This document shows, in pieces, positions 13,001 through 44,088 of a DNA stretch of 64,000 nucleotides (within the stretch, counting starts at the first letter, position 1; every line of letters starts with the position of its first letter). The stretch comes from Rhodohalobacter sp. SW132. Its GTDB lineage: Bacteria > Bacteroidota > Rhodothermia > Balneolales > Balneolaceae. The stretch covers positions 62,001 to 126,000 of the forward strand of contig NZ_QUOK01000011.1 of the NCBI RefSeq assembly GCF_003390325.1, given 5' to 3'. Below the pieces are notes generated by a model, which worked only from the letters and a program-made list of their open reading frames with translations, had not been told where the DNA came from and made no database searches. Both the position numbers and the translations under genes were made by a program.

Positions 13001-13763
13001 CACGAAGAGTTGGCCCGGTTACACTGATGATGTTTGTGTAATACTCTTGAAACTCTTCCTTGATAATGAATCTGTCACCCTCTCTTACGGCCACATTGTC
13101 TCCGATAAGGTCTCCCGGCGCATACAAATCCCTTACCCGTTCATTTCGGTAATGTGTCACATACAGATCCAGGTAACCGTTCCCATTTACATCGGCCAGG
13201 GTCATGGTTGTACCGCCTACTGTAGTGGAATCTAACCCACTCTGCGTTGCGCGGGTAAATGAACCCTCTCCATCATTCAATAACAGGATGGTCCCGTTGT
13301 GATAGGTCGTTACAAGTATATCTAAATGGCGATTTCCATTTACGTCGGCAAGAACCGTACCTGCTGACATATATTCTTCCAGTTCTACATTTGCTTCCTC
13401 GGAGATATCTATAAATTTAAAATTCCCTTGATTGAGATACAGTTTATTAGGCCCGTCAATTTGTGTAAAATACAGGTCCGTCCATCCGTTTCCATTGACG
13501 TCTCCTGCCGCAACACCTGACCCATTAAGCAGTACGGTATTTTCAATGTAACGTTCGTCTGTTAAGAAATTTTGAACTGTAATTCCTGTCTCAGATTCTG
13601 ATAAGTGCTTAAATCCTGCTTTATCCTGTCTGGGTAGCTGTAATTCCGACCATCGGTACCCATCTTCCTGGTTCCAGCTTAATTCAATATTCCTGCGATC
13701 AGTGGTACATTGAATGAATACCAGTGGCAGGACAAATAAGAAGAGTAACTTTTTAAAATTCAC
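10038..13763 (-). CDS. Giant FG-GAP/VCBS lipoprotein with two ASPIC/UnbV domains (copy 1)
   Basis: About 1,241 residues from a GTG at 13763, which gives a clean lipoprotein signal (FKKLLFLF to IQC, Cys19); an in-frame TTG at 13781 would add six residues. The body carries many FG-GAP/VCBS blades with calcium-loop motifs such as DVNGNGWTDLYF and DINGNG-like variants, so two beta-propellers are likely. One ASPIC/UnbV domain sits mid-protein (about 560-640, NTQAIGAKV) and another at the C-terminus (about 1150-1235, with GYWSQNGAVQVMG). No catalytic motif is recognised. It follows the GH10-like gene on the same strand and is paralogous to the gene at 55810. A surface glycan-binding or scaffolding role is inferred from context. 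Confidence 0.85.
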   Translation of the reverse strand: MNFKKLLFLFVLPLVFIQCTTDRRNIELSWNQEDGYRWSELQLPRQDKAGFKHLSESETGITVQNFLTDERYIENTVLLNGSGVAAGDVNGNGWTDLYFTQIDGPNKLYLNQGNFKFIDISEEANVELEEYMSAGTVLADVNGNRHLDILVTTYHNGTILLLNDGEGSFTRATQSGLDSTTVGGTTMTLADVNGNGYLDLYVTHYRNERVRDLYAPGDLIGDNVAVREGDRFIIKEEFQEYYTNIISVTGPTLREKGTPDVLYLNQGGIGDAWNGFKKVENLEDHFLDENGEPLGVGEKWGLTARFEDITGNGLPDLYVCNDFWPIDQFWINQGDGVFKKMDPLNFRHMSLSAMGIAVGDVNNNGHADFFVSDMLSPIHSERMRQIINLDPFPVEPGDVTNQPQYTQNSLYINRGDNSFVETANYSGVDASGWSWATSFIDANLNGLQDLFIATGYLYDAQDLDSSALVSRQINEQPYDLESYRRGKLQYPSLDLPNRMYRNEGDLKFSDVSSEWGFTAEDVSHGLAIADLNNDGALDMVVSRMNNPAAVYENTSGKDRIAVRLIGSVPNTQAIGAKVTLSGFEPFQRKRIVSGGNYMSGSAPHIMFASDPDSTNQELHITWPNGKESTIVDVRVNRIYEIYQDSISVQSENVVIEAATQPVFEDVSDRIDIKDSVNEYQDFRRQPFIPLMLSQLGPGVAWLDYNNNGREDLIQTSAQDGKLAVLRNDGDGQFSKQDIPGIENEQNDGGKQTAVIGWRTDEGLNMVVGRSEYEEPSPGGPSAYHYLIHEGEVVKTQEIPGTGSSTGTLAAADYNMNGTLDLFVGGRVIPGRYPESASSALYTLNDEQFVLDETNTELLQDIGMVTGAVFTDYNNNGWPDLLISTEWGSLKLFENDQGQFRDVTSEVGLDNYLGWWNGLATGDFTGNGLPDIIATNWGTNSRYEIVEDHPMRMYYGHIDGGSSLDIIQANYNPEMQDYVPLRRLNFYSGFRPMYSNINSYQDYAESTLEEILGAMIQITPYKEINTLESMVFINNDGQNFEAHPLPRTAQLTAGFSASIGDYNNDGNEDVFLSQNYFALPPGDIRLDGGRGLWLKGDGSGQFTAVPGQESGVKIFGAQQGAALSDFNADGRVDLVVTQNGNRTKLYENQTEKRGFRISLIGPQNNRNAIGATIRLIYNNGKKGPQREIQAGAGYWSQNGAVQVMGYLETLQPESIEVKWPDGSFKKVPVEQGIWNYEIEYIE

Positions 13764-13857
13764 AAAGTCAGGATCAATCAATGGCCGGTTGCAATAAAAT
13801 TCTTCTTCGTAGTGGAATGTGGAATATAGTTCTATAGTGCTTTCTATAAAATGTAAA

Positions 13858-13980: not shown

Positions 13981-15630
13981 TTAATTTCCACTGTTAAACC
14001 CATTCATTAAACCAACTGCAAAACCTGCATATGCTCGTTTTCGCTCATAATCACTGGTCCAAAGCCCTGACGGATTATCCGAACTATCGAGCGGATTCCA
14101 GATCGTAATACCGTATCGTTGACTTTCAGGTACTATACTAAAGTATTGATCTGCCACAAACTGGTACATTTCGGATTGCGCTTCATAAACCTCAGGAGAG
14201 GCTGCTCCAGCACTAATTCCATCAAGTCCCACATTCAACCCGGATATTTTAATTATTTTATCCGTGGCTGCCAGTAACTCAAACATTTCCGTAATATCTT
14301 GCCGGCTGCTATTAATGTTGATATTCATATGTGTGCCAATACCATCCACTACAGCCCCATTATTTTCTATGTATTCAACATAATTTATGAGTCCGTGGGT
14401 TTTATCCAGATTATCCAAACCATAATCACTTATAAACAAGATATCTCCGTCGCCTGCATGCTCTCTGGCTACTTGAAAAGCTTGAACGCCGAAGTCTTCA
14501 CCCAAATATTCATACCAGTTAAATCCACCATCACTCCTCAACTGGAAACTATTTTCGTCTCCGCCTTCAATTGTTCCGCTCACAACATCCCAGGCATCCA
14601 CATAAGAAGCTTCGCTAACCATTGTTGATACCCAATTTTCTAATTCTGTGCTTAGGATTTCTTCCTTCTCTTCAGGAGTTTTTTCCACTAATTCGGTGCC
14701 AGTTTCAGTATTATAGTACCACACCTCCATATTGTCAAAGTAGTATGTGGTAGCTGTAGCTCCGAGATTAAAAGCTATTGTACCTGCACTTGCCTGTTCT
14801 TCGCTCACCGTGATTTCCATTAAATGTTGTGACCATTCTGGTGTAGCGTTAATCGTCCCAAAAAAATCCCAATGTAGATATTCTGTAGGTGCATCATGAG
14901 CCTGAGTTGGAAAGCTAGCTTCCTGTTCTGCACGCACATCCATCACAAATCTAAGTTGGTCGCCTTCTTCCACGTTTGGTTCGAATGTCATGAAAAACTG
15001 GCTGTCCCAATCGTTTTCCCGAACTTCTGCGTTAACGATCTGCAGTGCGCGCCCTTCTCCATTAGCACCCTCGCCATCTGCGGTAAATGATAAATCTGCT
15101 CCTTCGTTTGCCTCATAATTTGAATCGTCGTCCGTTTCAAAGTCTGCACTGGAAATTAACTCCCATGACGGTTCGCTTACTTCAATCGTTTCGGGAGCAA
15201 TCAAATCATTGAGGTAGGCTTCGTTTTGATTTTCAAATGAGATCAGGGCATTACCATAAACTGATATACCGGCTTCCTCTGCTACTCCTATTAGATCACT
15301 GATGCTTAAAAGGTCATGGCTTCCATCTGCCTGAACGACAGCTCCATGACTCATATCGTGGACAGTAACTTCTTGAAAATTACTATTCACCAAACCAAAG
15401 ATTGCACCCTGATCTGCAAAGGCAGATGCCGAAACTGCTGTTCCGAGCTTAAAATCAGAATTTTCAGTATTGATGTACGTTTTCAATGGAGAGAAATTGC
15501 TATCTAATGAATCCTGCACTGCAACACTTTGAGGTGTCTCCATGTTAAAGTTAGTTGGGTTTTCCTTGGTGCAGGATGCTATCAAAATCAAGGTCGCTAT
15601 ATAAATTCCTACCGTAAATAACTGTCTCAT
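13981..15630 (-). CDS. GH10-fold lipoprotein without catalytic glutamates, with inserted carbohydrate-binding module
   Basis: A 549-residue lipoprotein (LILIASC, Cys20). Residues about 50-145 and 325-545 follow the GH10 xylanase fold: KLGTAVSASAF at the start, WDVV at 347-350, ISDYGLDN near 400, VDGIGTHMN near 430 and YGITIWNPLD near 510. A beta-sandwich of the CBM4/9 type (about 155-305) is inserted, as in Bacteroidota Xyn10 proteins. In active GH10 enzymes WDVV is followed by Asn-Glu (acid/base); here it is S351-G352. The nucleophile motif ITELD reads I-S-G-L-N at 462-466, so that Glu is Gly464. The protein is therefore probably a glycan-binding pseudoenzyme in the SusCD complex. It is the sixth gene of the SusCD operon. 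Confidence 0.85.
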   Translation of the reverse strand: MRQLFTVGIYIATLILIASCTKENPTNFNMETPQSVAVQDSLDSNFSPLKTYINTENSDFKLGTAVSASAFADQGAIFGLVNSNFQEVTVHDMSHGAVVQADGSHDLLSISDLIGVAEEAGISVYGNALISFENQNEAYLNDLIAPETIEVSEPSWELISSADFETDDDSNYEANEGADLSFTADGEGANGEGRALQIVNAEVRENDWDSQFFMTFEPNVEEGDQLRFVMDVRAEQEASFPTQAHDAPTEYLHWDFFGTINATPEWSQHLMEITVSEEQASAGTIAFNLGATATTYYFDNMEVWYYNTETGTELVEKTPEEKEEILSTELENWVSTMVSEASYVDAWDVVSGTIEGGDENSFQLRSDGGFNWYEYLGEDFGVQAFQVAREHAGDGDILFISDYGLDNLDKTHGLINYVEYIENNGAVVDGIGTHMNININSSRQDITEMFELLAATDKIIKISGLNVGLDGISAGAASPEVYEAQSEMYQFVADQYFSIVPESQRYGITIWNPLDSSDNPSGLWTSDYERKRAYAGFAVGLMNGFNSGN

Positions 15631-15662: not shown

Positions 15663-16715
15663 TTAGGGTAGTTCCGGAGAAAATGTTTCAAGACCGATAC
15701 CACGATCACGTAAAACCAACGTATCTGCCGTTTCTACACGACGTTGCGACTGTTCCCATTCGACCACATAGTCAAGGTAGATTGCATTTCGGTTTTTCTC
15801 ACCCCAGCTTTCTTCTGATTCACTTTGGTTTACAAAGGTGCCACTACCGCTTGCGGTATATTCATCGGAATCATCAGAAACAGTGATATTCCCCTGATCA
15901 TCAAAATCGAGTAAAATTGTAATGTTTATATCATTCCCGTCGGAATCCGGTATTGTGTATGGAAATGATACCTGTGTTAAAGACTGTGTAAGTAAATCAA
16001 CAACCTCATCTTTAACAACTGATTCAGTTCGCCGTATCCTGGTTTCTGTATCCCCATTTTCATCCGTAAACATGTCTTCTCCTCTGCGAAGGTAGAATCC
16101 ATCGTAATGATTTATATACTTTATTGCGTAGAAAGTATAATCCTTCGGTTCAACCTCCCAGTCATCAGCAACCCCTCTTCTTGGATTACTTGCAAACGGA
16201 TTGGGTGTCCCCTGAAGAATTGTATCTGCATTCGCTACATTTAACAGTTTTACAGGAATTACATACGTTGTATTTATTGCATCGGGATCCTGAAAAAATT
16301 CATCTGTGAGTTGTATCGTCAATCCTCCGGCCAGTTCGCCTCTTGGAATTACCATTTGATCACCATTAGAGATGATCTCAAAATAATTATTCGGCAGCGC
16401 CTGTATGGGATTTCCAGTTCCCCCAAACTCAAAACCGTCAACCATTTCCTGGTCAATTTCGTAATCAATCATCACATCATTGTTATTTGAATACACCCCA
16501 CCGGTAGTAGCCATAACTCTAAACTGATGATCATTATCAGATTCATTGTTGTACAGGTATTCTCCCAATATTATAGTCCTGACCGGATATTGATAAGAAA
16601 AGTATACCGACTGATATTCATAGTCGGAAAATTCCCAGTCCTGATTTTGACATGATGTCAATAAGGTTACGGCCATCAACACTATAAACGCGCTTAAAAC
16701 ACTCTTATATTTCAT
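15663..16715 (-). CDS. DUF1735/DUF5627-like surface lipoprotein (SusE/F position)
   Basis: About 350 residues from ATG 16715, chosen because it gives a standard lipoprotein signal (MKYKSVLSAF to LLTSC) with a purine-rich stretch just upstream; longer in-frame starts overlap the preceding susD gene. The N-terminal half (QSVYFSYQYPVRTIILGE, then an Ig-like beta pattern with VIPVKLLNV) resembles DUF1735, and the C-terminal half resembles DUF5627. Such proteins sit on the outer surface beside SusC/SusD and bind glycan. It lies between susD (16765) and the GH10-like gene (ends 13981), with about 50 and 32 bp spacing, clearly in the same operon. The ligand is not evident from sequence. Confidence 0.8.
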   Translation of the reverse strand: MKYKSVLSAFIVLMAVTLLTSCQNQDWEFSDYEYQSVYFSYQYPVRTIILGEYLYNNESDNDHQFRVMATTGGVYSNNNDVMIDYEIDQEMVDGFEFGGTGNPIQALPNNYFEIISNGDQMVIPRGELAGGLTIQLTDEFFQDPDAINTTYVIPVKLLNVANADTILQGTPNPFASNPRRGVADDWEVEPKDYTFYAIKYINHYDGFYLRRGEDMFTDENGDTETRIRRTESVVKDEVVDLLTQSLTQVSFPYTIPDSDGNDINITILLDFDDQGNITVSDDSDEYTASGSGTFVNQSESEESWGEKNRNAIYLDYVVEWEQSQRRVETADTLVLRDRGIGLETFSPELP

Positions 16716-16764
16716 CTTTCCCATTTCCTCATTTATAAATTTATTAGATATCATACGATACATA

Positions 16765-18534
16765 CTACCACCCAAAATTCTGTTCTAAACCGAATTTTAA
16801 GATTTCGTTGTATGGCACAGGTCCAAAACGCATATAAGGTTGAAAATCCCGGGTTTCAACTGTCATCACTTCATGATCCCCGTTTGTGATTCTAACGCCA
16901 AGAGCAGGTTCAGTTAAATCCATATCCCATCTACGCAGGTCCCAAAAGCGAAAGTTTTCAAAGGACAATTCAATACGACGGACATCCCGTACGAGTTCCC
17001 GCATGTCTTCAACAGAATTGATTTCATTTTGCATATACTGATCAGGCTGGCTGACTCCCTGGCGTGCCCGGATCGCTTCTATCACATCATACGCGGAGAA
17101 ACCAAAAGGACCGGTTCCAGTTGGACCCCATGCTTCGTTGGCCGCTTCTGCATACGCAAGATAAATTTCAGTGTAACGGATTCGGGGAATATAGTGTAAC
17201 TGATCATTGGTACTGGTTGGATCAAGGTTCACATCCTGACGGAGTAGTTTTTTCATATAGTAGCCGGTACGTGTAGAGGTTGACACCTGATTCAGTGCGT
17301 CATTAGTAGTACCGTCTGCGGCTGTAATAATGGTGGTATTATTTACACCAGCTGTTCCGCCATTCACCAGTATATAATGCTGAAGCAGATCAACCCGGTT
17401 TTCGTACGGAGTTGAAGGGTCATAATTACTATCGGGATGGTCAATCGGGTATCCATTCTCCATTGGAAAAGCATCCACCAGATTTTGTGTCGGGTTCATT
17501 CGGCCATTTCCAAAAAGGGTCGGAGGAAAATGTTCGGATTCCAGGTCATTACTTTGCCCAATGTTAGTTCTCCAGATGATCTCCGGCGGGTTTTCACCTG
17601 AGCCGATACTGGACATACCGCTATCGTTATACCAGCTATGTCCATTCTCCGCTAAGCCCATTACTCCGTCATTCAGCTGTAGTAGTTCACCACTGTAGAC
17701 AGCGGCGTCCTCCCAAGTCGTATTGGTACCGGCTGTATAGGCAGGGCTGGCAGCCAGTAGGCCACTTTGCGCTTTTATTGCCATCGCTATACGACCACTC
17801 ATTCGCTGCTTGCCATCATCACCGAACACCCGGTTAAATCTTCCCAGATCATCATTTGTACTGCCAAAACCATCAGGTAATTGAGAAGGATCACCTACAT
17901 TACCAAAATCAAGAGGAAGCATCTCCGTTGCTTGTTCTATATCACTGAATATTTGTTCTAACCCTACCTGAAACGTATCTCTGGGCTTTTGAAAGTCTGA
18001 ATCTATACCCTCCGGTTCTAATACGACAGGCACACCGAGTAGCTGACCGCCCTGGTTTCCTCCGGTCCAGCCTGCATGGTGCCGCAATAAATGGTACATA
18101 AATAGTGCCCTTAAACCGTAGGCTTCACCCTTCAGTCGTTGATTGAACAGTGCGCTTGAAATTTCATCATCTGCCCACTGAACATTATCTGCATTATCCA
18201 GGAAAATATTTAAGTATTGAATGGCTGCACGGCTGTTTTGCCATTGATTAAGCGGGTTATTATCTGCGGCCCACTGACCGTTAGCCATCTGGCGAAATGC
18301 AGCATTATTATCATTGGTCACTGCATTATCTGTAGCTACATCTGTAAATGTCCACCCGTTATTTGGCAACAGGTTGTAGGCATTCGCCAAAATTCCTTCG
18401 GCATATGTTGCATCGGTGTACATATCATCCAGCTCATTGATATTCTGATTGCCCGGACTTAAAACGTCACTGCAACTTGCAATGAGAACTGCAAGAAGTA
18501 AAAAAAACAGGTATAATAGTATCCTTTTATACAT
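16765..18534 (-). CDS. SusD/RagB nutrient-binding outer-membrane lipoprotein (pair 2)
   Basis: A 589-residue SusD-family lipoprotein (VLIASC, Cys21). The typical TPR-like helices appear in the N-terminal half (ALFMYHLLRHHAG, LPLDFGN) and the C-terminus shows RIELSFENFRFWDLRRW and ends QNFGW, the family signature. It forms the lid of a SusC transporter and helps deliver oligosaccharides. Its partner is the SusC gene just upstream (stop at 18558, 23 bp away). Confidence 0.95.
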   Translation of the reverse strand: MYKRILLYLFFLLLAVLIASCSDVLSPGNQNINELDDMYTDATYAEGILANAYNLLPNNGWTFTDVATDNAVTNDNNAAFRQMANGQWAADNNPLNQWQNSRAAIQYLNIFLDNADNVQWADDEISSALFNQRLKGEAYGLRALFMYHLLRHHAGWTGGNQGGQLLGVPVVLEPEGIDSDFQKPRDTFQVGLEQIFSDIEQATEMLPLDFGNVGDPSQLPDGFGSTNDDLGRFNRVFGDDGKQRMSGRIAMAIKAQSGLLAASPAYTAGTNTTWEDAAVYSGELLQLNDGVMGLAENGHSWYNDSGMSSIGSGENPPEIIWRTNIGQSNDLESEHFPPTLFGNGRMNPTQNLVDAFPMENGYPIDHPDSNYDPSTPYENRVDLLQHYILVNGGTAGVNNTTIITAADGTTNDALNQVSTSTRTGYYMKKLLRQDVNLDPTSTNDQLHYIPRIRYTEIYLAYAEAANEAWGPTGTGPFGFSAYDVIEAIRARQGVSQPDQYMQNEINSVEDMRELVRDVRRIELSFENFRFWDLRRWDMDLTEPALGVRITNGDHEVMTVETRDFQPYMRFGPVPYNEILKFGLEQNFGW

Positions 18535-18557: not shown

Positions 18558-21425
18558 TTAAAATTTTGCATTGATTCCCAGATTGAAGAACCGCATTTGG
18601 GGAGTCGTCCCTACATTTGTCTCCATGATATCACGGTTGGGAGAGATGGTCAGAAGATTGGCTCCAGTTACGTATACCTGCAGTTGTCTGATATTGGATG
18701 CCTGAAGAAAGCTTGCCGGCAGATCATAAGTTAATTGTACCTTTTGCAGGTCAAAACGATCAGTACTATACATCCAAAAGTCGGATGTACGAAAATTGTT
18801 ACTACCGGTTTGGGTTGTAAGCCGTGGATAGGTTGCAGTATTTGCAGTTTCCTCGGTCCAGCGATCGCGAACAACAGAAGAGTATTTATTATCTCCATTT
18901 ACCCAGTAGTAGTCACCACTCATCACACCGTAGGAACCAAATTGTCCGGTTCCTAAAGTAAAAAGCGTAAAATTATTCCATCTGGCAGTTAAATGAACTC
19001 CAAATTCCATTGGAGCGCCATTCCAACCGGCCCGTCCAAGATACACCTGATCCTGAGAATTGATTACATTATCATTGTTCTGATCAACATATTTAATATC
19101 ACCCGGTCGCACAGTGCCAAATTGCTGAGAGGCCTCATGATTATCAATTTCTTGCTGGTCCATGAATAAACCCTGGCTTTGAAGTCCCCAAATACCATCC
19201 AATGGAGTTCCTTCGGTATTTTGATAGTCGAACTGGTTAATCTCGGCACGCCTAACTGCCTTACTATCAAAAAAGGTTCCTGCCAAACCAAGTGACCAAT
19301 TTACCCCGCCCAATTCTTCATTAAATCTGAGATTAAAATCTATTCCCTTTCTTTGATCAATATTATAATTCACGTAGGGAATAAATGAGTTTTCAGGCCA
19401 TCCGGTTGAAAAATAACTTGGATATAGTGCAGATGCCTGGATAACTCCCCCTTCATTTCTATTATAGAAGACCGTAGACTCTATATTTAGAGTATTGTCA
19501 AAAAAAGATGCATCAATACCTGCATTTAATTCTTTTCGCTTAATATAGGTAAGGTTTGGATTGGCACCTCTAAAAGACTGAGTACCTTGTCTGAGATTAC
19601 CATCTCCCCATCCAAAAAATGCACCATCAGCCTGAGAGTATCTTGCTTCATACAAATGATAGCCGGGAATTGGCATATCGGTATTCACTATACCGCCTGA
19701 AACAAAAAGTTTGAGATTATTGATAGCGCTTGCATTAGCCATGAAACCTTCCTCGCTGACTCTCCAACCCAGCGTTGCGGTTGGTGAGAATGCCTGCCGG
19801 TTACCTTCCGGAAGTTTTGCTGAATGAGGTATAGCAGCGCTGAAATCTACATAATACTTTTCGCGGTGGTTATACCCTAACTGTAAACCCAGGTTCAAAT
19901 TCCCTGTTCGATGATACTCTCCGGAATAGCTAAGCTGATGGACATTGGTAATCAGCATTGCCGAGATTTGATTGTCTTGATCAATATTCCGGTGATAATT
20001 GAACTGTCCTGAAAAGGCGAGTGTTTGCTGGAATATGCTATTGTCCACATTTTGGACTCCGGTTCTTGCGTCCTGACCAAATGTGTTGAGACTACTTACC
20101 TGATTCTCACCATCAAAAGCCACCCAATTAGGGTCATATACTGCATATTGATTGTTAAAACCCTGATAATATGACGATAGATAATCAACTCCGAACATAC
20201 TATTGAATTCCAACCCTTCAAGTACAGCATCCAAGTCCATCGTTATCGCTGTATTGAACTGAAATTGTCGTCCCACGGATTGATTGGTTCCACCAGCATA
20301 GATATCAGCAATTGGATTTGATGAATAGATCTGATTCCCACCCAACAAATATCTGTCATTAATAACATGGTCACTGTTCTCAATAATCTGTTGTAGATTC
20401 TGATTGCCATCTACAAACATATCAATGGGTATAAGTGGTGTATAGCGATCCGGGCGCAAGGTGGAAGCTTGTCCCCAATAGTCGGTATTTACACCGTTCT
20501 GTTCGTCGTAAATTACACCGGCCCCTACAGATGCTCTTATATTTTCATTCAGCTCAAAATCAACATTTGAACGAATGTTGAAATTATTTCCCCGAAGATT
20601 TTCACCTTCCCCAAAATCCAGAAGGGAGTTTGAGGTTATAAAATTTATATTCGTGTAGTAATTTGCCGTTTCGGTACCCCCGGATAATTCCACATTTCCC
20701 TGATATCGGTTCGTAAAATCCCTCAGGTAGTCCGGTGAATAGTAATCAACATTTGGATATCTGTACGGATCGTTACCCCTGGAGTGCCTGTAGATGGTTT
20801 CCGCGGTATATTGCTGTGGCAAGCCATCATTCTGAAGCGCTTCATTATATAGCGTCATATATTCTGCTGAACCGAGATATTCAGGATATCTTATAGGGAT
20901 GTTAATACCTCCATTTACCCTTCCATTTATCTGCAAATCGTGGTCTCCCCCTCGCTTAGTCGTTATATATACCACACCATTCGCGGCACGGCTACCGTAT
21001 AACACATTGGCAGAGACTCCCTTCATAAAACTAATCTGCTGTATTGCGGACGGATTGATGCTCCCTGGATCACGGGGAATACCATCCACCAGCACCAAAT
21101 AATCGCCCATTCCCCATAAACTACCGTTAAATCCTCCTGCAAAAGCCTGCATATTTTCCAAGCTGAAGGTCATGTAGTTTTTTTCCATTATACGAGGTAC
21201 ATCCACGACTGAGATTCCTCCCATTAGATTTTCTCTGGGAATTTGTCGAAATGCACCCTGTACAACTCTGGGCCCAACTCTCTGAAAATCCACCCCATCC
21301 GTTTGAGCAACAGTATCTTCGATCGCCTGTTCCATCTCTTCCGAATTAGAATCCTGTGCGATTAAGCCAGTAGGCAGTAAGAAGAGTATGGTACACACTA
21401 ATATATTGTATCGTAAGTATTTCAT
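18558..21425 (-). CDS. SusC/RagA TonB-dependent transporter (pair 2), short N-terminus
   Basis: About 955 residues from ATG 21425, which begins a signal peptide (MKYLRYNILVCTILFLL); longer starts overlap the previous gene. A plug domain (LVLVDGIPRDPG; GSRAANGVVYITTK) is followed by a long beta-barrel ending in FFNLGINAKF. Unlike the other SusC proteins here, it lacks the ~80-residue carboxypeptidase-regulatory-like domain after the signal peptide; only a short acidic segment precedes the plug. It pairs with the SusD at 16765. It should import an oligosaccharide across the outer membrane using TonB/ExbBD energy. Confidence 0.93.
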   Translation of the reverse strand: MKYLRYNILVCTILFLLPTGLIAQDSNSEEMEQAIEDTVAQTDGVDFQRVGPRVVQGAFRQIPRENLMGGISVVDVPRIMEKNYMTFSLENMQAFAGGFNGSLWGMGDYLVLVDGIPRDPGSINPSAIQQISFMKGVSANVLYGSRAANGVVYITTKRGGDHDLQINGRVNGGINIPIRYPEYLGSAEYMTLYNEALQNDGLPQQYTAETIYRHSRGNDPYRYPNVDYYSPDYLRDFTNRYQGNVELSGGTETANYYTNINFITSNSLLDFGEGENLRGNNFNIRSNVDFELNENIRASVGAGVIYDEQNGVNTDYWGQASTLRPDRYTPLIPIDMFVDGNQNLQQIIENSDHVINDRYLLGGNQIYSSNPIADIYAGGTNQSVGRQFQFNTAITMDLDAVLEGLEFNSMFGVDYLSSYYQGFNNQYAVYDPNWVAFDGENQVSSLNTFGQDARTGVQNVDNSIFQQTLAFSGQFNYHRNIDQDNQISAMLITNVHQLSYSGEYHRTGNLNLGLQLGYNHREKYYVDFSAAIPHSAKLPEGNRQAFSPTATLGWRVSEEGFMANASAINNLKLFVSGGIVNTDMPIPGYHLYEARYSQADGAFFGWGDGNLRQGTQSFRGANPNLTYIKRKELNAGIDASFFDNTLNIESTVFYNRNEGGVIQASALYPSYFSTGWPENSFIPYVNYNIDQRKGIDFNLRFNEELGGVNWSLGLAGTFFDSKAVRRAEINQFDYQNTEGTPLDGIWGLQSQGLFMDQQEIDNHEASQQFGTVRPGDIKYVDQNNDNVINSQDQVYLGRAGWNGAPMEFGVHLTARWNNFTLFTLGTGQFGSYGVMSGDYYWVNGDNKYSSVVRDRWTEETANTATYPRLTTQTGSNNFRTSDFWMYSTDRFDLQKVQLTYDLPASFLQASNIRQLQVYVTGANLLTISPNRDIMETNVGTTPQMRFFNLGINAKF

Positions 21426-21475
21426 TCGTTCTACGTTTTTTAACTCGTGCAATTGATTATCTCCTTCGTTTAGCA

Positions 21476-23371
21476 TCACCATCCAGGATTTTGTTCAAAA
21501 CTTGCGCTGATATTCACATCTGACCGTTTTAAGGGGAGCCAGTAGTGACGTTCGGTGAGATTTCTCTCCTTAAGCACTACTTCATTTAAGTTCAGTACTC
21601 TATTTTCTCTTGGATTATCCGGATCAAAATCAGGTGACCGCTGAAAGAAATGGCCGGTTTTTCTAGTGTTATTTTCATCTAAGAGTAATAGCCATCTGCG
21701 CTGATTTGTAAGCCGATGCCTTTCAAAACCTAATTCAACAGACCACTCTCGCCTTACCTCACTCAGAAAATCATCCACATCCCCTAAATATCGACCATCC
21801 ACAGGCGGAACACCGGCTCTGTCTCGTACTCTGTTAATCGCCTCTTCAGCCGTCATATTGAAAGTTCCGGATGACCCTGTAGATGATTGGTTGGCTACAG
21901 ATGCCGCTTCTGCATACATAACGTAGACACCGGCTAACCGCATCCAGGGAAGGTGAATGTGCAGGTTACTGCCATAACTCATCCCATCATCATATGTATT
22001 GGCTGTCAATGGAATAAACTTTCTTAACGTGTAACCTGTTTGAGTACCACCCGGACTGGCACCATTTGCATATCTATAGCTGCCTCCAGTATATAGATTC
22101 GCATGGCGATGTTGCTCATCAGCCTCTGGCATTGTACCCTGAACCACTTGCAAACCATCATACACGAATGTACTATAAAAACGCGGGTCGCGATCTCTCC
22201 ACGGATATTCCTCATCATAACCAGAGTCACCTTCATCCAGAGGTAATCCATTCGCCATTCCAAATTTCTTCACATAGTTTGCGGTTGGGAAGAAATTACT
22301 ACCATCCATGATGATGGTCGGTGTAAACTGTTTACTGGTATTCCAATTTGATTGCCAGGCATCGAAATAGGGACCTGTAAATATTCGTTCGGTTCCACCC
22401 GGTAACTCCCAGTTTTGGCCATGAGTATAGAAATTCATGTGCCATTCCGAAAAATCTAACAGCTCATAATTTGCTTCACCTGACTCCACAAGGCTCAGTA
22501 GTTCACCGAGTGCATCAGCTGCCCGTTCTGCGAATTCCTGGTTATAGCTCGCTGCCGTCTCATCCGCTCCATCATTCATCAGGGGGCTGGAGGCCCAAAG
22601 CAAATTTTTGCCAAGGTATCCCAGAGCCATGATTTTATTAATACGTAATGCATTGTTCCCGGCCGTTCTAGCCCCAACTTCAGTTTCGTCCCAGCTTATG
22701 GGTAACAGATCAGCAGCCCTTCTAAAGTCCCGTGCCACACTATCGGCAATAGCTTGGTAAGGTAATCTTTCCTGATCGAACTGTGCATCAGCCGGAAGAG
22801 GTTCACTCATATAAGGCATACCGCCAAAATGTTGCATATACTGGAAATAATTCCATGCTCTGAAGAACAGCAATTGGCCTTCAATCAGGTTTCTTTCCAT
22901 TTCTGTACCCTGAAGCTTATCCAAATTACTAAGCCCAACATTCGCTTTGCGAATTGCATACCAGCCGTGATCCCAAAGGGATTTATCAAATCGATCCGCG
23001 TTAGTAGTAGGAGGGCTACCGGCTTTATCAAGCCAGGATGTATTCCACCCGTTATGTTCCGATTGCCAGCCCCAGAAATTACCGTCATCGAACATATCCA
23101 CAATGTGGTAATCCATGTCGTTACTTGTAACAATATCGTCTCCGAAATTCCAATTACTTGTCCAGTAGGAGTTTGAAAAGTCAGGTATGATATTGTATAG
23201 CTCCTCGGTAAAACCCTGGAAATTGGTGAAGTTTTCAAATGCAGCATCTTCAGACACATTGGATTCCGGTGCCTTCATAAGAAAATCTTCACATGAAACC
23301 AGTACAACTGCGCTCAGGAAAATCCCGAATCCTAAAATTGTGTATTTATTTATTGTCTTATTCATATTCAT
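21476..23371 (-). CDS. SusD/RagB nutrient-binding lipoprotein (pair 1)
   Basis: A SusD-family lipoprotein of about 631 residues from ATG 23371 (VVLVSC lipobox near residue 27 from that start). It shows GQLLFFRAWNYFQYMQHFGG, EVRREWSVELGFERHRL and the terminal FEQNPGW typical of the family. It is longer than pair 2's SusD. It pairs with the STN-containing SusC just upstream, whose stop codon overlaps the 5' leader of this gene, indicating tight co-transcription. Confidence 0.95.
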   Translation of the reverse strand: MNMNKTINKYTILGFGIFLSAVVLVSCEDFLMKAPESNVSEDAAFENFTNFQGFTEELYNIIPDFSNSYWTSNWNFGDDIVTSNDMDYHIVDMFDDGNFWGWQSEHNGWNTSWLDKAGSPPTTNADRFDKSLWDHGWYAIRKANVGLSNLDKLQGTEMERNLIEGQLLFFRAWNYFQYMQHFGGMPYMSEPLPADAQFDQERLPYQAIADSVARDFRRAADLLPISWDETEVGARTAGNNALRINKIMALGYLGKNLLWASSPLMNDGADETAASYNQEFAERAADALGELLSLVESGEANYELLDFSEWHMNFYTHGQNWELPGGTERIFTGPYFDAWQSNWNTSKQFTPTIIMDGSNFFPTANYVKKFGMANGLPLDEGDSGYDEEYPWRDRDPRFYSTFVYDGLQVVQGTMPEADEQHRHANLYTGGSYRYANGASPGGTQTGYTLRKFIPLTANTYDDGMSYGSNLHIHLPWMRLAGVYVMYAEAASVANQSSTGSSGTFNMTAEEAINRVRDRAGVPPVDGRYLGDVDDFLSEVRREWSVELGFERHRLTNQRRWLLLLDENNTRKTGHFFQRSPDFDPDNPRENRVLNLNEVVLKERNLTERHYWLPLKRSDVNISASFEQNPGW

Positions 23372-23381
23372 TTCAACAAAT

Positions 23382-26300
23382 TTAGAAATTAACATTAACC
23401 CCTAAGTTAAATCGTCGTACCGTTGGGTAGGCTCCCTGGCTGGTCACGCCACCGCCTGCAAAATTAGATTCCCGGTCATCGGGCATGTTGGTCCACAAAA
23501 GCAGGTTATGACCGTTCAGGTAAATATTTAAGCTACTGATACCCAGGCCTCTTGCTACATTTGAATTTGCATCAAATGTGTACCCTATTTGAGCACTCTT
23601 TAAACGCAGATAAGATCCATCATACATCCAGCGACTTCCTCTGCTGTATCCACTGATATTGGTATTCCAGCGAGGCATCATAGTATTCGCTTCAGGGTTA
23701 TCCAAGCTCCAGTAGCCGCCTTCTACATCATAAGCCAACTCATTCCCCCCAAGGCTGCCAAAATTAGTGCTCCGGATTACATTATTTACACCATAGAATT
23801 GTGCAAATCCGCTGAATCCAGCCCAATCAAATCCAACGGTTGTATTAAATGTATTTTGCGGTGTCCCGGAAAAGCCAAATGGGACAGAATCCTGATCATC
23901 GATTAATCCGTCGGAGTTGTAATCAACAATCCATTTACCTCCAGGTAATTTCCCCGCATCATTCGTATTAAAAGGAGTAGATGCATACACTTCATCCCAA
24001 GAGTCATAGAAACCTCTGTCGATGTGTGTTCGCGCCTGGCCTACAGCGTACCCAGCCTGTTTTTGATAATCTGGTGTTAATTCAGGGTCATCCCTTTCAA
24101 TAACTTCATTTTGTGCATGAGTCACATTCACTTCCGTCCACAGTCGGAATCGACTACCAATCATTCGATCAAGGTTAAGTGTAACCTCAAATCCCTGGTT
24201 ATGCACCTCTCCGATATTAGCTACAGGAGCCTGCTGCCCAAAGTAGGATGGAATCGCCCTGTCGCCCCCGCTAATAAGGATATTTTCACGTTTATCTTGG
24301 AAAAAGTCGACAGAACCGGATATCTGCCCTTGAAAGAGTCCGAATTCAATTCCCAAATTAGCCTTAGTTACCGTTGCCCAGCGCACATCCGGGTTACCCA
24401 ATGATTCTACTCTATACCAGGTGTATGGACTTTCCGGAGCTGTAATACCAACAGTTCCCATACCTGTATTGCCTCCATATGCCCATTCCGTCATGTAGAG
24501 CCAGCGTCCTGTAGTGTAGTCATCCCCGATAGTTCCGTAGGAAGCTCTAACTCTAAGATTATTGAGGAAATCTAATGAACTCATGAAGCTCTCTCTGTGA
24601 ATATTCCAGCCAACTCCACCAGATGAAAAGAAACCAAATCGATAACCTTCACCAAACCTTTCCGACCCGTTATATGATCCGTTGTATTCAAGTATATATC
24701 GCTGATCATAATTATAGGTTGAACGAAATACCCAGTTTTCGCGAGCTTGAGGAATGATGCTACCTAACGCATTTTCGGAACGGTTTACAAGTCCCATCTG
24801 AGTGAAATTATTCCGCTCACCTAACGTAAAATCGTAGTTTATCTGAAACTGATAGTACCATCGCCGATACGTCTGAGAATTATCAACCGATCCTCCATCG
24901 GTATTCCACAAACTTCCTGGCTGAAAATCAAAAGGAGTTCCTGTATCGTAAAGGGGCTGAAATGTTTCATTCCCGCTTATTGGGTCAATGTATCTGCTGC
25001 GTGCAGAATTGTATAAGTCATTCACTCCCCTGTTGCCTTCAACAAAAGTGTTATCAACGGCAACCTGAGCTCTAACATTCAACCCTGGCACAAACATGTC
25101 CAGATCTTGGTCAAGCTCAAAATTTGTGGTCAACTCAGTACTGGTTATTCGTTCAATTCCGCTCAATGCCAAAATTTGTACCGAGTTACTACTTCCCCCG
25201 GTTGCGTCAGGGTCAAATCCAAAACTTCCATCCGGATAAATTGGCAAATACTGAGTTGGGGATGCACTGTATGCAGCTATCCAAAAACCATAGTCGCCCC
25301 CTGAAAAACCCCAGGGCCTCTTTCTTACCCCATAAGAACCTGCAATTTTTGCACTTAATGTAGTTGAAGGACTCAGTTGAAAATCCAGGTTAGAACGGGC
25401 ATTTAACCTCTGAAACCCGAATCCGGGTTGATATCCGCGATTGTTTTCAAACTCTCTGAAAAGATCGCCTTCATTCACATAATTAGCACTTGCAAAAAAT
25501 TGTACAAATTCAGAACCACCTCTAATATTCAGGTTAGCATCATACGATTGGGTATACTCTCTGAACAATTCATCAGCCCAATCCACATTTGCATAGCGTA
25601 TCCGATCTTCCGGAGATTGTGGCCGTTGATAACGATCGACAAAATCTTGTGTATGATACGCCCCCCAACTTGCATTTGGTGCACCAAGCTCATGTTCTAT
25701 GGCCTGGTTTCGTAACATCAGAGTTTCATATCCATCCATTACACCCGGCAGTTTCGATGGAACCTTAACTGTATTTGTGAAACTTCCTGATATCTGAACC
25801 TGTCCATCGTAACCCGATTTAGTTTCAATCAGGATCACACCATTTGCACCCTGAACTCCGTAGACAGCCGTTGCAGAAGCATCTTTTAAAACTGTCACTG
25901 AGGATACAGAACTCATATCCACACTTCCCATCGGGCGCTCAATCCCGTCAACCAAAATTAGCGGGGAAGAATCCTGCCAGGTACTCTGTCCGCGTATATA
26001 AATTTGAGGATCTTCCTCACCCGGCAAACCGGTACTGCTTACAGTAACCACCCCCGGCAGCTTACCCGTCAGCGCCATACTCAGGTTCGGTACCTGAACG
26101 GTCCTCGCCAGATCTCTTTCAGAAATAGAGGAGATACCTGCAATTACACTTTCCCTTTGCTGAGTACCAAAACCGACAACCACCAGCTCTTCACCGGTAA
26201 ATGTTCCGGGCTGCAAAGCAACATCAATCTGATTTCGGTTCTCGATAGGAACTTCCAATCTCTCATATCCAATGAATGTAAATACAAGTGTGTCGGTTGG

Positions 26301-26870
26301 GGCGGGCACATTTAGCGAATATTCTCCATACAAATTAGTTGAGGTACCCTGTGAGGTTCCCTTTACCATTATATTTACACCCGGCATCGTCTCTTCAGTT
26401 TCAACATCAGTGACAACCCCTTCTACCAAATGGTTAAAAGATTCCACTACAGCAGCCTGCTCTTCGCCATCCTTTTTAAGGATAAAAGTGCGTTCATTCA
26501 GTTTGGTAAATGTCAGATTGAAATGATCTACAAGTTTCTGCAGTTCCTTCCCGAAATTATCTGACTGTCGGAAAAATTTGGGCTCTACGCGCATTCCATT
26601 CAGCAAACCGCTTTCATAGATAAATGAGACATCAAACCATTCCTCCATTTGTTTAAGCTCATCTTCCAACTGGACACTGCTTGATTCAGACTGAACACTA
26701 TCCTGCTCATTCAGGGTTATTATTGGGTCTGTTTTTTGACCATCTGCCGAGGAAAGCCCTGCCAAAAAAATAAATAACAGGCATCCCAAAATGCGGATTA
26801 TCGTAGCTTTATCGTTCATCTGTGTTCCCATTGATTTTGACATTGAAAACTGATCATTTGGTTTACTCAT
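23382..26870 (-). CDS. SusC/RagA TonB-dependent transporter with STN signalling domain (pair 1)
   Basis: A 1,162-residue transducer-type SusC. After the signal peptide (about 20-45; Met18 is an alternative start) comes a secretin/TonB short N-terminal domain (STN, about 68-133), then a carboxypeptidase-regulatory-like domain (about 147-225), a plug (LILVDGIERPMG; VYGVQGANGVILIETK) and a barrel ending RRFNLGVNVNF. The STN domain contacts the periplasmic part of FecR-type anti-sigma factors, and the fecR-like gene lies only 10 bp upstream, so substrate import is probably coupled to induction of the locus. Confidence 0.95.
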   Translation of the reverse strand: MSKPNDQFSMSKSMGTQMNDKATIIRILGCLLFIFLAGLSSADGQKTDPIITLNEQDSVQSESSSVQLEDELKQMEEWFDVSFIYESGLLNGMRVEPKFFRQSDNFGKELQKLVDHFNLTFTKLNERTFILKKDGEEQAAVVESFNHLVEGVVTDVETEETMPGVNIMVKGTSQGTSTNLYGEYSLNVPAPTDTLVFTFIGYERLEVPIENRNQIDVALQPGTFTGEELVVVGFGTQQRESVIAGISSISERDLARTVQVPNLSMALTGKLPGVVTVSSTGLPGEEDPQIYIRGQSTWQDSSPLILVDGIERPMGSVDMSSVSSVTVLKDASATAVYGVQGANGVILIETKSGYDGQVQISGSFTNTVKVPSKLPGVMDGYETLMLRNQAIEHELGAPNASWGAYHTQDFVDRYQRPQSPEDRIRYANVDWADELFREYTQSYDANLNIRGGSEFVQFFASANYVNEGDLFREFENNRGYQPGFGFQRLNARSNLDFQLSPSTTLSAKIAGSYGVRKRPWGFSGGDYGFWIAAYSASPTQYLPIYPDGSFGFDPDATGGSSNSVQILALSGIERITSTELTTNFELDQDLDMFVPGLNVRAQVAVDNTFVEGNRGVNDLYNSARSRYIDPISGNETFQPLYDTGTPFDFQPGSLWNTDGGSVDNSQTYRRWYYQFQINYDFTLGERNNFTQMGLVNRSENALGSIIPQARENWVFRSTYNYDQRYILEYNGSYNGSERFGEGYRFGFFSSGGVGWNIHRESFMSSLDFLNNLRVRASYGTIGDDYTTGRWLYMTEWAYGGNTGMGTVGITAPESPYTWYRVESLGNPDVRWATVTKANLGIEFGLFQGQISGSVDFFQDKRENILISGGDRAIPSYFGQQAPVANIGEVHNQGFEVTLNLDRMIGSRFRLWTEVNVTHAQNEVIERDDPELTPDYQKQAGYAVGQARTHIDRGFYDSWDEVYASTPFNTNDAGKLPGGKWIVDYNSDGLIDDQDSVPFGFSGTPQNTFNTTVGFDWAGFSGFAQFYGVNNVIRSTNFGSLGGNELAYDVEGGYWSLDNPEANTMMPRWNTNISGYSRGSRWMYDGSYLRLKSAQIGYTFDANSNVARGLGISSLNIYLNGHNLLLWTNMPDDRESNFAGGGVTSQGAYPTVRRFNLGVNVNF

Positions 26871-26880
26871 ATTTATCTGA

Positions 26881-27945
26881 CTACTGTGATATCAAATATT
26901 TTTCATTATCAACCTGTGTGATCTGCAGGTCAAGAATTTGTTGAAGTCCATTCAGCAGAATTTGTAAATCAGGATTTTGAATTGTCCCGGTGACCTGGCG
27001 ATTCAAAAGCTCTGGTGATTCTACTTCCAGGCTAACATTGTAGATAGCTTCTATAGCTGAAAAAATATCTTTGAGTGAGGTATTCCGGAACTCGACCTCC
27101 CCATCAATCCAGGCAGTAAACAACCCTACATCAACCTTTTGTACTATAATTTCTGACGAAGATTTGTTGATCACTGCACGTTCACCCGGATTCAAGATCT
27201 TACTTGCTCTTTCCAGGCCTTGAGAGTCATTACCCGATACTTCTACCCGTCCCTCCTCCAGCACTACACTTGTTTTTTGAAATCGGGTATCCACATTAAA
27301 CCTGGTTCCCAGAACCTGAATCTTTCCATCGTCAGTGTGAACGATAAATTCACGCTGAGTACCACCCGGATTAGTCGGAATATCAAAAAAGCCTTCGCCT
27401 TTCAGCCAAACCTCGACTCGCTCGCCTTGAAACTGCTCCAAACGATATCGCAATGAAGACTCAGCATTTAATTCAATCAGCGATCCGTCACTAAAAGTCA
27501 GAGTCTTCCTTTCTTCATCTCCGGTTTCAACCGTTTCAAATAGCAGCTCAGCATTTTGTTCAGTAGTTTCTGTGGGGTTAAAGAGAAAAAGCAGTCCCAG
27601 GCTTGACAAGATTATTAAAATTGTTGCCGCTACTGATACCCGGTAGCCCCATGAATTGTTTTTGGGCTGCATCTTTTTAAAAGATGGTAGTTTATTCTGC
27701 TGTTCAGATCTGTCAATTCGTTTTGTTAATCTTTCCAGCTCAAATTCCAAATCATCAGCCGGATCTAAATCCCATCTCACTTGATAAAATTTTTCAGCGT
27801 TTGCTCTTAACTCTCTGTGGAGAGGATCCTTTTGCTCCCAATTTTCCCAACGTCGTTTCTCAGACTCACTGGCGGTGCCCCTGATCCAGCGAGTAAAAGA
27901 ATCATTACTCAATAATTCTGTTAATTTTTGATTTGATGTAGCCAA
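26881..27945 (-). CDS. FecR-family anti-sigma factor
   Basis: A 354-residue inner-membrane regulator. Residues 1-90 are cytoplasmic (DSFTRWIRGTASESEKRRWE), a single membrane helix lies at about 101-123, and the periplasmic part has the FecR domain (FIVHTDDGKIQVLGTRFNV) and a C-terminal DUF4974-like domain. It should hold the upstream ECF sigma inactive until the STN-bearing SusC binds ligand. The only usable start near the N-terminus is TTG at 27945; no in-frame ATG is found upstream before the reading frame loses coding character. It lies about 210 bp after the sigma gene and 10 bp before susC. Confidence 0.92.
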   Translation of the reverse strand: MATSNQKLTELLSNDSFTRWIRGTASESEKRRWENWEQKDPLHRELRANAEKFYQVRWDLDPADDLEFELERLTKRIDRSEQQNKLPSFKKMQPKNNSWGYRVSVAATILIILSSLGLLFLFNPTETTEQNAELLFETVETGDEERKTLTFSDGSLIELNAESSLRYRLEQFQGERVEVWLKGEGFFDIPTNPGGTQREFIVHTDDGKIQVLGTRFNVDTRFQKTSVVLEEGRVEVSGNDSQGLERASKILNPGERAVINKSSSEIIVQKVDVGLFTAWIDGEVEFRNTSLKDIFSAIEAIYNVSLEVESPELLNRQVTGTIQNPDLQILLNGLQQILDLQITQVDNEKYLISQ

Positions 27946-28155: not shown

Positions 28156-28734
28156 TCAGCCAGTAAGTGAAACCTCTAAATTCTCTTTGAGAGTAGAAAT
28201 AGCACGGTACATATAGTTATATACACTCTCTATCTTTACCCCCATGATTTCGCCGATTTCATCATTGGAAAGACCACTGTAGAACTTAAGAAAAGCTACC
28301 TCTTTTTGGTGACCATTTAAGTTATCAAAAGCCTTCTGTAGGTTTTCTTTTGTTTCTCTATTCATCTCTTCTGTGATCAGCAGCTGCTCTGTGTTTAACA
28401 AGTCTTCGTTGGGCGTCTCAGAAAAATACAATTCATCTCTTTTTTGCCATGTTTGTAATATTTCTACTTGCCTGAAAAGAGTTCTGCGGAACGAAGTGTA
28501 TAGATAAGATCTTACATTTCCGATTTCTGATAATCTCTCTCGTTTATCCCAAATCGTGAAAAACAGTTCCTGGATACTATCTTTAACCAGCTGTTTGCGG
28601 GGAACTAACCGTAATCCATAATTTAAAAGAGGTTTGTAATATTTCCTGAACAAAGCTGAAAACGCGTCACAGCTGTCATCGTGAATAACCCGCTTCCATA
28701 AATTGATATCCTCTAAAAAATTGTTTTTACTCAT
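28156..28734 (-). CDS. ECF sigma factor (FecI-like, Bacteroidota type)
   Basis: A 192-residue sigma-70-family factor from ATG 28734; a TTG seven codons earlier is less likely. Region 2 is in FSALFRKYYKPLLNYG and VKDSIQELFFTIWDKR, and region 4 in HQKEVAFLKFYSGLSNDEIGEIMG followed by a helix-turn-helix (IESVYNYMYRAI). There is no extra domain. With the FecR-like gene and the STN-type SusC downstream it forms a cell-surface signalling switch for the SusCD operon. Confidence 0.93.
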   Translation of the reverse strand: MSKNNFLEDINLWKRVIHDDSCDAFSALFRKYYKPLLNYGLRLVPRKQLVKDSIQELFFTIWDKRERLSEIGNVRSYLYTSFRRTLFRQVEILQTWQKRDELYFSETPNEDLLNTEQLLITEEMNRETKENLQKAFDNLNGHQKEVAFLKFYSGLSNDEIGEIMGVKIESVYNYMYRAISTLKENLEVSLTG

Positions 28735-29440
28735 ATCGTTATCCCATAGGCTCAATAAAAGCGCTTTTTTACCTTAGAAAAAATATTCTTCTAATCGTAC
28801 TGTTTTGAAAATAACCCCAATGTTATTTACAATTATTTTAAGTGTTAAATGCACACTCAATAAGCTAAAACAATTATCTTAAATATCAAGGTTTTATTTT
28901 CTCCTGCCTTCAGACTCCTCAGAACCGTTTTTTGAGTACTTTTTGAGAGAAATGGGTGTGATTGTTAGTTGTTACTTAAGGCCATTATAATTGGTTTGTG
29001 ATAGTAAAAACAATGCAAAACAACCCTTATGCAAAATTTTGTAATTACTTTTCGCAAACCTTCATCAAAACCAACTCTTTAATCCAATATGCTGTAGCTA
29101 AATAGTTGTAGGTCTTATGTCGAATGACACAACTGTCCAAAAAATTGACTTAGATTTTTTAATCCTCGCAGATTTTCGCAAAGTACCCCGCAGAGTTTCG
29201 CTGAGTTGTGGTATTTGGACAGTAGCCTATCAGCGAGGGAATCTTGAGGGTTGAATTTATTTATGGTATAAGATCCGCTTTTATACACCTGAAACGGATG
29301 CTTTTGTAAGCTTCAGTATTATTTTGGACAGCTATGGTCGAATGAATACATCCATCATTCAACCCAATAAAAGAAATGAATTACATCAGATGCAGTGTAA
29401 TAGATGTACGAAATGCCTGGCGAATGCTAAAATCATTCAG
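28735..29440. other. Long intergenic region upstream of the ECF sigma gene
   Basis: About 700 bp without a gene. The part near 28740-28900 is AT-rich and should contain the sigma-gene promoter. The part from 29119 to 29345 is a small inserted element (listed separately). The remainder shows no ORF, hairpin or RNA gene that could be supported. Confidence 0.6.
29119..29345. mobile_element. Non-coding MITE-like element, 209 bp, with 9-bp target duplication
   Basis: The element spans 29128-29336. Its ends are inverted repeats: 29128-29142 (CACAACTGTCCAAAA) and the reverse complement of 29322-29336 (CATAGCTGTCCAAAA), 13 of 15 bases identical. Directly outside both ends is the same 9-mer GTCGAATGA (29119-29127 and 29337-29345), as left by transposition. 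It encodes no transposase. A third TTTGGACAG lies inside at 29214-29222, beside a patch with repeated CGCAGA/CGCAAA words, so the element may be composite. The parent IS family is not identified. Confidence 0.75.
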
Positions 29441-42410: not shown

Positions 42411-44069
42411 TTAATAACCAGGGTTTTGTGCATATGGTGTTGAAGTCCGGTTCATTTGATTGGCAGGAATAGGCCGTAACATATGATGCTCCTGAATATT
42501 TGATGCTCCGGAAGTCGGACTGTAGAGTTGTACTCTTTCAACTAACTTCCCGGTACGCTTCAAATCGAGCCACCGTTTTTGTTCGCCATAGAATTCCCGG
42601 GCACGTTCATCCAGAATGAAATCAATATCCAGGTCTCCGGCCGTGATTTCCATTTGCCCCCCCAGCCCCGGGTGAGCAGCTCTTCGCCTTACTTCATTAA
42701 CATAACTCACAGCATCACCAGCCCTTCCATCCATAATCAAAGCCTCTGCAGCATTGAGGTAGGTTTCTGCCAGCCGATAGACGATATAATCGCGTGATCC
42801 TTGCTCATGGTTAATTGAAGGACGTTTAAAATCATCTACTTTTTTCAGATTGGGAAACATATTGATATCCCAATACCAGTCGTCATCCTGATTATCAATA
42901 TTCCAGGTCATAATATTTACACCTGCAAGCCTGTTTTCATAGTCGTTAACATCTTGCTGAGTTAGAAACCGATCGGTTACATAAATTGCCGTATCGCCAA
43001 CAGCAGCACCATCTGGTATTCCGCTGGTTGTATTATAGTACCACACATCCTGGAATGTTTTTTCGTACCTCGCATCAACATCCAGCGGCCTGAAGTTCTC
43101 CATACCAAAAGGTGTAGGTCTGAACCGTATCCACGGGCGCCCATAGCCGGGCTCCAGCGCGCGATCCAGTCCATCATTAAAAACTTCATACCATGGTCTG
43201 TAGTGCAAGTGACTCTGATTTCCATTGTTGTTTAATATGGGGTCCTCTGTATACTGTACTGACCATAATACTTCAGCATTTTGTTCATTATCATGGTCAA
43301 ACACATCTGCAAAATCGTCCAGCAATACATGATCGTAATTATTGATTACGTTATCCGCAAGAGTTGCAGCGCGGGCAAAATCGTCTGATTCCGCAAAATC
43401 CTTGTACCCGCGAGTTAACAGTGTTAGTGAAAGCATGTGTTCCGCTGCCGGTTTTGTTGCCCTTCCAAACTCACTTTGAGTATCTGGCAAATGTTGAACG
43501 GCAAATTCCAGATCATCTACAATAGCTGCATAAATTGCTGATTCAGGTGTCCGTTCAGCATCTGTCTGAACACCCACTGTTTCTTCAAGGGTTAGGTGAA
43601 CCGGTCCAAAATGCTGCACCAGGATATAATAAAAATGAGCACGTAAAAACCGCACTTCACCTAATTTAGCATTCAATTCATCTGCAGAAATATCTTCGAG
43701 TTGACTTGCCCGATCCACAGCGGCGTTTGTTGTATTAATTGCCTGGTAAAAATTACTCCACAAATGCCAGAAGGGGGAAGATTCGGAGTTCATTTCAGCA
43801 TCATAATTATTCATATAATGAAATCCGCCATGACCACCATTGGTGATAATATCGGTTCCCATCGCAGTCAGATTCCCTCCTTGTTCGGTTCCGTAATATT
43901 CCCGCAAGAGTGAATATGAAGCATTGACAGCATCATCAAATCCTTCCGGAGTATTGTAATGGGCATCTACAGTTACCCCCGATACGACCTCCTCGCTCAA
44001 CACATCACACGATACAGCAGTGATGAAGATTATGGCGAGTACTGTAACTAAATAGGTAAACTTTTTCAT
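42411..44069 (-). CDS. SusD/RagB nutrient-binding lipoprotein (pair 3)
   Basis: A 552-residue SusD-family lipoprotein (ITAVSC, Cys21). Family features are VRFLRAHFYYILVQHFGPV, GRATKPAAEHMLSL, LAETYLNAAEALIM and the C-terminal AQNPGY. It is clearly paralogous to the SusD at 62119 (both have NTPxGF, NASY and LREYYGTE near the N-terminus). It is 19 bp after its SusC partner. Confidence 0.95.
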   Translation of the reverse strand: MKKFTYLVTVLAIIFITAVSCDVLSEEVVSGVTVDAHYNTPEGFDDAVNASYSLLREYYGTEQGGNLTAMGTDIITNGGHGGFHYMNNYDAEMNSESSPFWHLWSNFYQAINTTNAAVDRASQLEDISADELNAKLGEVRFLRAHFYYILVQHFGPVHLTLEETVGVQTDAERTPESAIYAAIVDDLEFAVQHLPDTQSEFGRATKPAAEHMLSLTLLTRGYKDFAESDDFARAATLADNVINNYDHVLLDDFADVFDHDNEQNAEVLWSVQYTEDPILNNNGNQSHLHYRPWYEVFNDGLDRALEPGYGRPWIRFRPTPFGMENFRPLDVDARYEKTFQDVWYYNTTSGIPDGAAVGDTAIYVTDRFLTQQDVNDYENRLAGVNIMTWNIDNQDDDWYWDINMFPNLKKVDDFKRPSINHEQGSRDYIVYRLAETYLNAAEALIMDGRAGDAVSYVNEVRRRAAHPGLGGQMEITAGDLDIDFILDERAREFYGEQKRWLDLKRTGKLVERVQLYSPTSGASNIQEHHMLRPIPANQMNRTSTPYAQNPGY

Positions 44070-44088
44070 GGGTCAATAACCTCTTCAA

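Follow-up and report, generated by a model that had tools for sequence, protein, structure and literature searches.

A GH10-like lipoprotein without catalytic glutamates at the xyn10C position of a xus-type operon in Rhodohalobacter sp. SW132, a probable surface glycan-binding protein

The window analysed here is a stretch of 64,000 nucleotides from Rhodohalobacter sp. SW132 (assembly GCF_003390325.1, contig NZ_QUOK01000011.1, positions 62,001 to 126,000). It carries a gene for a protein of the glycoside hydrolase family 10 (GH10) fold that has lost the catalytic pair of glutamates and the -1 subsite. The protein retains an inserted domain resembling a carbohydrate-binding module (CBM), its reading frame is intact, and its gene stands last in an operon ordered like the core xylan utilization (xus) operon. 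It is probably the orthologue of Xyn10C of that operon, which would have lost hydrolysis and would now be a glycan-binding protein anchored by lipid in the outer membrane. An earlier note, made from the letters of the window alone, had proposed that a xylanase was retired here and retained for binding glycans at the surface. Sequence, operon, phylogeny and the precedent of BACOVA_03431 support that proposal, in which binding and inactivity are both predicted. The observation in the note is confirmed and its interpretation is supported; the locus (xus/xyn10C) and the precedent were not named there.

The open reading frame, 13981..15630 on the minus strand, begins with ATG and encodes 549 amino acids; the coordinates and strand given earlier are exact. 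The note had found the fold landmarks of GH10 readable, and the sole Pfam match of the protein is PF00331 (GH10), with 104.3 bits against a gathering score of 22.1 (E 9.6e-30). A sequence search of solved structures matched 105 distinct chains, the top ones being GH10 xylanases. The signal peptide ends, by reading only, with the lipobox-like LILIASC at residues 14-20. Since the PF00331 score lies above the cutoff, automatic annotation would indeed call this gene GH10; the note had expected it to be called an active xylanase.

The acid/base segment reads A346-W-D-V-V-S351-G352, with GGA as codon 352, and the nucleophile segment reads K461-I-S-G464-L-N466, with GGG as codon 464. These are the residues claimed in the earlier note. 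Alignment to solved xylanases by HMMER and to 19 intact Xyn10C relatives by MAFFT places S351-G352 where the acid/base glutamate follows beta-4 (WDVVNE) and G464 where the nucleophile glutamate lies on beta-7 (TELD). No glutamate stands at either catalytic column in any alignment used (HMMER, MAFFT and one three-row alignment), and both are indeed missing. The three-row alignment opened a gap after WDVV, yet a glutamate at the acid/base column was still absent.

The damage extends through the -1 subsite (Lys, His, Trp, Asn, Gln-x-His, Asp and Trp). At ten canonical positions, picked from knowledge of the GH10 literature, W511 alone is kept; besides the two glutamates, the changes are K94S, H127N, W131S, N351S, Q434H, H436N and D466N. 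The 19 intact relatives share 111 invariant columns, of which the window protein fills 106 and keeps 75. Losses affect nine of the ten canonical positions against 22 of the 96 other invariant ones (Fisher p 4.9e-5). A single sequencing error as the cause is ruled out by two unrelated glycine codons and seven more active-site changes. Given the residues that it has lost, the protein is predicted to have no endo-xylanase activity. That it might still catalyse a reaction through other residues or by another mechanism is extremely improbable. W511 is kept and E355 lies near the acid/base loop, but the latter is three residues beyond the acid/base column and aligns with the non-catalytic aspartate of the "NEPMDD" loop. 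The nucleophile column holds glycine and none of its neighbours is acidic. At 94, 127, 131, 351, 434, 436 and 466 every counterpart is changed, and a milder loss already goes with inactivity in BACOVA_03431.

The GH10 barrel is interrupted at residues ~152-306 by the CBM-like domain, whose presence within the catalytic fold had also been noticed earlier. The protein was modelled with AlphaFold (AF2) from seven rows, and the Foldseek matches of the insert are CBM4-2 (2y64) and CBM22 (4xup); Pfam CBM_4_9 scores nothing on the window protein. The model is confident at the insert and poor for the barrel (mean predicted local distance difference test score 58, below 50 in the N-terminal half), and it was used only for the insert and for the order of strands in the C-terminal half. 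All nine invariant family columns of the insert are kept, whereas the remainder of the protein keeps 66 of 97, a difference that is suggestive only (p 0.056). Conservation of the insert, at 45-54%, does not clearly exceed that of the barrel, at 41-53%.

On the minus strand the gene order is ECF (extracytoplasmic function) sigma factor, FecR, SusC, SusD, SusC, SusD, a protein with a BT_3987-like N-terminal domain and DUF5627, and the GH10-like protein (Table 1). The eight genes are co-directional and several neighbouring pairs overlap by a few bases. The core xylan utilization order is xusA-xusB-xusC-xusD-xusE-xyn10C; its last gene encodes a GH10 protein, Xyn10C, that carries CBMs between beta-3 and alpha-3 of the barrel (PMC7848910; PMC11216935). 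Once the two regulators are set aside, the order in the window is xusABCDE-xyn10C. The XusE-like neighbour has a match at E 1.3e-71 to PDB 3N91, the structure of BACOVA_03430 from the polysaccharide utilization locus (PUL) PUL-XylL of Bacteroides ovatus, and the SusC and SusD partners are 50-59% identical to those of intact xus loci.

Table 1. Location of the degenerate xyn10C gene, its diagnostic sites and the other genes of its operon (positions in the window)
Feature	Position	Strand	Basis
Catalytically degenerate Xyn10C, GH10-like lipoprotein, 549 aa	13981..15630	-	Pfam GH10 E 9.6e-30; lipobox-like LILIASC; syntenic relatives intact
Codon 464, Gly in place of nucleophile Glu	14239..14241	-	Alignment, codon reading
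Codon 352, Gly in place of acid/base Glu	14575..14577	-	Alignment, codon reading
Inserted CBM4/CBM22-like beta-sandwich, residues ~152-306	14713..15177	-	AF2 model, Foldseek, conserved columns
XusE-like lipoprotein, BT_3987-like N domain (DUF1735-like) + DUF5627	15663..16775	-	Pfam; PDB 3n91 E 1.3e-71
XusD-like SusD homologue	16765..18534	-	Pfam SusD_RagB; synteny
XusC-like SusC/TonB-dependent transporter	18558..21482	-	Pfam Plug; synteny
XusB-like SusD homologue	21476..23395	-	Pfam SusD_RagB; synteny
XusA-like SusC/TonB-dependent transporter	23382..26870	-	Pfam CarbopepD_reg_2 + Plug; TIGR04056
FecR anti-sigma factor, likely operon regulator	26881..27945	-	Pfam FecR; upstream position
ECF-type sigma factor, likely operon regulator	28156..28755	-	Pfam Sigma70_r2 + r4_2; upstream position

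The kind of protein was already described in 2015 through BACOVA_03431, and the window protein is a further member. BACOVA_03431, encoded in PUL-XylL, is displayed at the cell surface and binds glucuronoxylan and corn xylan but is inactive as a xylanase; it was the one natural inactive GH10 protein that the 2015 paper knew of (Rogowski 2015, PMC4491172). Both are GH10 homologues and lipoproteins that have lost the nucleophile, and both occupy the same position of a core xus locus, beside a protein with DUF1735 and DUF5627. Compared by the published description, the window protein differs in lacking both catalytic glutamates and nearly all -1 residues, and it comes from another branch of the phylum. 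With the Xyn10C-type enzymes Pm25, BACOVA_04390 and Bacteroides intestinalis Xyn10C (PMC7848910) it shares a CBM inside the barrel, the locus order and the lipoprotein character; these are active xylanases, however, whereas the window protein has no catalytic pair. Its single insert compares with two in Pm25 and in BACOVA_04390. The non-catalytic GH18 chitin-binding lectins, an analogy named in PMC4491172, also lost catalytic residues and put a GH fold to use in binding; their family and ligand are different. When inactivated by mutation, the Xyn10C-like Pm25 is about as good a xylan binder as its isolated CBM pair (PMC7848910).

Because BACOVA_03431 binds xylan, the Pm25 mutant binds through its CBMs and the window protein keeps a CBM4/CBM22-like insert, it is probably a surface receptor. 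The lipid anchor would place it at the outer-membrane surface, where its ligand would be beta-1,4-xylan or a close relative. Binding would occur chiefly through the insert, and the emptied cleft may provide a second site. Captured chains would be handed to the two SusCD transporters and cleaved by other enzymes, perhaps those encoded by two intact GH10 genes of this genome, which lie on a different contig in the neighbourhood of GH67, GH3 and GH43 genes. A grip on plant fibre at the cell surface is thus the most likely role, shown before for one protein of a gut bacterium. It is very improbable that the protein is instead a structural part of the outer-membrane SusCD complex with no glycan contact of its own. 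Sugar binding is not universal among the lipoproteins of the locus, as none of the xylans tested was bound by BACOVA_03430, a homologue of XusE (PMC4491172); that protein is the counterpart of the neighbouring gene, not of the GH10 gene, and the nearest functional counterpart of the window protein, BACOVA_03431, does bind xylan. The retained CBM-like insert also speaks against a purely structural part.

Several observations weigh against a receptor for xylan kept by selection. The operon contains no xylanase or other xylan-active GH elsewhere, nor does the 64-kb window. It is headed by ECF/FecR and not by a hybrid two-component system (HTCS) as described for the xylan PULs of B. ovatus. The same protein was found in no other genome, with 128 of its order and 175 of its class searched. 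The data hold no near copy of the gene, so that selection in its own lineage can be judged only indirectly.

The first two of these points mean that the ligand may not be xylan, and the protein would then be a surface binder of another glycan, the loss of catalysis having been accompanied by a switch of ligand. This is unlikely, but it is the most serious of the alternatives. It agrees with the change of every -1 contact except one and with the presence nearby of a second PUL with oxidoreductases, ThuA and DUF6807. A receptor for xylan is favoured by the identity of the SusC and SusD partners to those of intact xus loci, by the conserved CBM insert and by the xylan set of GH67, GH10, GH3 and GH43 genes elsewhere in the genome.

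The xus-xyn10C gene order was found in genomes of several families. Seven syntenic copies from one genus (L039-L041 and L047-L050) are about 43-46% identical to the window protein over the full length, with WDVVNE and VSELD intact. Because these syntenic relatives keep both glutamates, the window gene is the descendant of an active-type Xyn10C and has lost catalysis. A search of genome contigs returned Marinilabilia copies only, both intact. Plasmids gave weak GH10 matches only and no copy of the window protein, and a single-sequence query of viral contigs gave no copy either. On one IMG/VR "viral" contig (L074) an intact Xyn10C gene precedes a cellulase-like and a GH43-like gene; the contig resembles bacterial PUL DNA, not a virus. 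Since the window protein has no copy in other genomes of the order or class, horizontal gain of the operon is suggested.

A gene that arrived in this way might be a decaying pseudogene, drifting without function. Its occurrence in only one genome of the 128 in its order and its long terminal branch (0.87) would fit such decay. However, the 549-codon frame has no stops, the lipobox and most fold positions are retained, and the losses cluster at the active site. The identity of the GH10 protein relative to that of XusE is 0.92-1.02 between the window and the intact loci L041, L048 and L038, compared with 0.84-0.98 among those loci, and the window GH10 thus shows no excess divergence relative to XusE. 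Inactive relatives in another lineage, the pair L037/L070, have a nonsynonymous divergence (dN) of 0.34 and a synonymous divergence (dS) of 2.8, the latter saturated, and seem to persist under purifying selection. Together with the nine conserved columns of the insert, the clean frame, the XusE-relative identity and the dN/dS of this pair are evidence against a pseudogene, which is very improbable.

Loss of catalysis is not confined to the window. A survey of homologues adjoining DUF5627 genes, which the earlier note had proposed, yielded intact, partly degraded and fully inactive copies, as well as loci with a CBM protein alone in the slot. In L037 and L070, beside a DUF5627 gene, Tyr-Gln replaces Asn-Glu and the nucleophile is Ala or Ser. 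In the same genus, the Xyn10C of L058:1480-3168 (plus strand) reads WDVVKD (Lys-Asp) and keeps the nucleophile glutamate, and L071 has an intact Xyn10C. L058 is a possible intermediate between intact and inactive copies. The collected loci suggest a recurring change of function, and with such graded copies within one genus the passage of an enzyme into a binding protein can be put to the test.

In nine loci of another family (L105-L113, for example L107:2703-4403, plus strand) the DUF5627 gene precedes a GH10-like gene with SFDLIDE and RLSNFD, in which the acid/base glutamate is kept and the nucleophile is Asn. This gene is followed by one for a second protein, of 677-739 amino acids, alignable only in the CBM-like parts. 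In the same family L120 (listed as L140:9571-11325, minus strand), adjoined by a DUF5627 gene, reads NWNVLDE and RISGLD, with Gly as the nucleophile; it is not claimed to be BACOVA_03431 itself, its next gene encoding a BACON-domain protein and not the GH30/GH98 pair. L117:2791-5025 (plus strand), on a very long branch and with no DUF5627 gene seen adjacent, has a GH10-like protein with WNVIGE and RISDFT, the nucleophile being Asp. The DUF5627 loci L043:5163-6752 and L044:5887-7476 have a Big_3+CBM_4_9 protein in the Xyn10C slot, which can therefore hold a CBM protein without the enzyme fold.

The inactive lineages that were tested and the window protein do not group in a single clade. A single inactive origin for the window protein and L037/L070 was rejected (approximately unbiased test, AU p 6.9e-5), as was one for the window protein and L120 (AU p 1.2e-4). 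In a tree of 38 rows, four switches between the intact and the inactive state are required, three of them forced by supported branches. The main caveat is the long branches, together with the quick trees made for the second set. The replacements at acid/base and nucleophile differ with each loss: G/G, Q combined with A or S, a retained E combined with N, and a retained E combined with G or D. On balance, it seems that Bacteroidota repeatedly convert the xylanase in the last slot of the core xus operon into a non-catalytic glycan receptor, with at least three independent losses forced by the tree, varied replacements, CBM-only proteins in other loci and a possible change of ligand in the window lineage. 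A repeated origin of inactive Xyn10C across Bacteroidota was not found in the open-licence literature searched. Judged from the sequences, the new elements are the loss of both glutamates, a member outside the gut Bacteroides and at least three losses of catalysis in the same slot.

Three FG-GAP/UnbV_ASPIC repeat proteins are encoded in the window (10038-13781, 34935-37172 and 55810-59607), one of them immediately downstream of the inactive GH10 gene. Many GFO/IDH/MocA oxidoreductases lie between 29441 and 63783, together with DUF6807, ThuA, a 3-keto-disaccharide hydrolase-like protein and UxuA. These genes surround a further SusCD pair (42411-47043) and are suggestive of a keto-sugar pathway.
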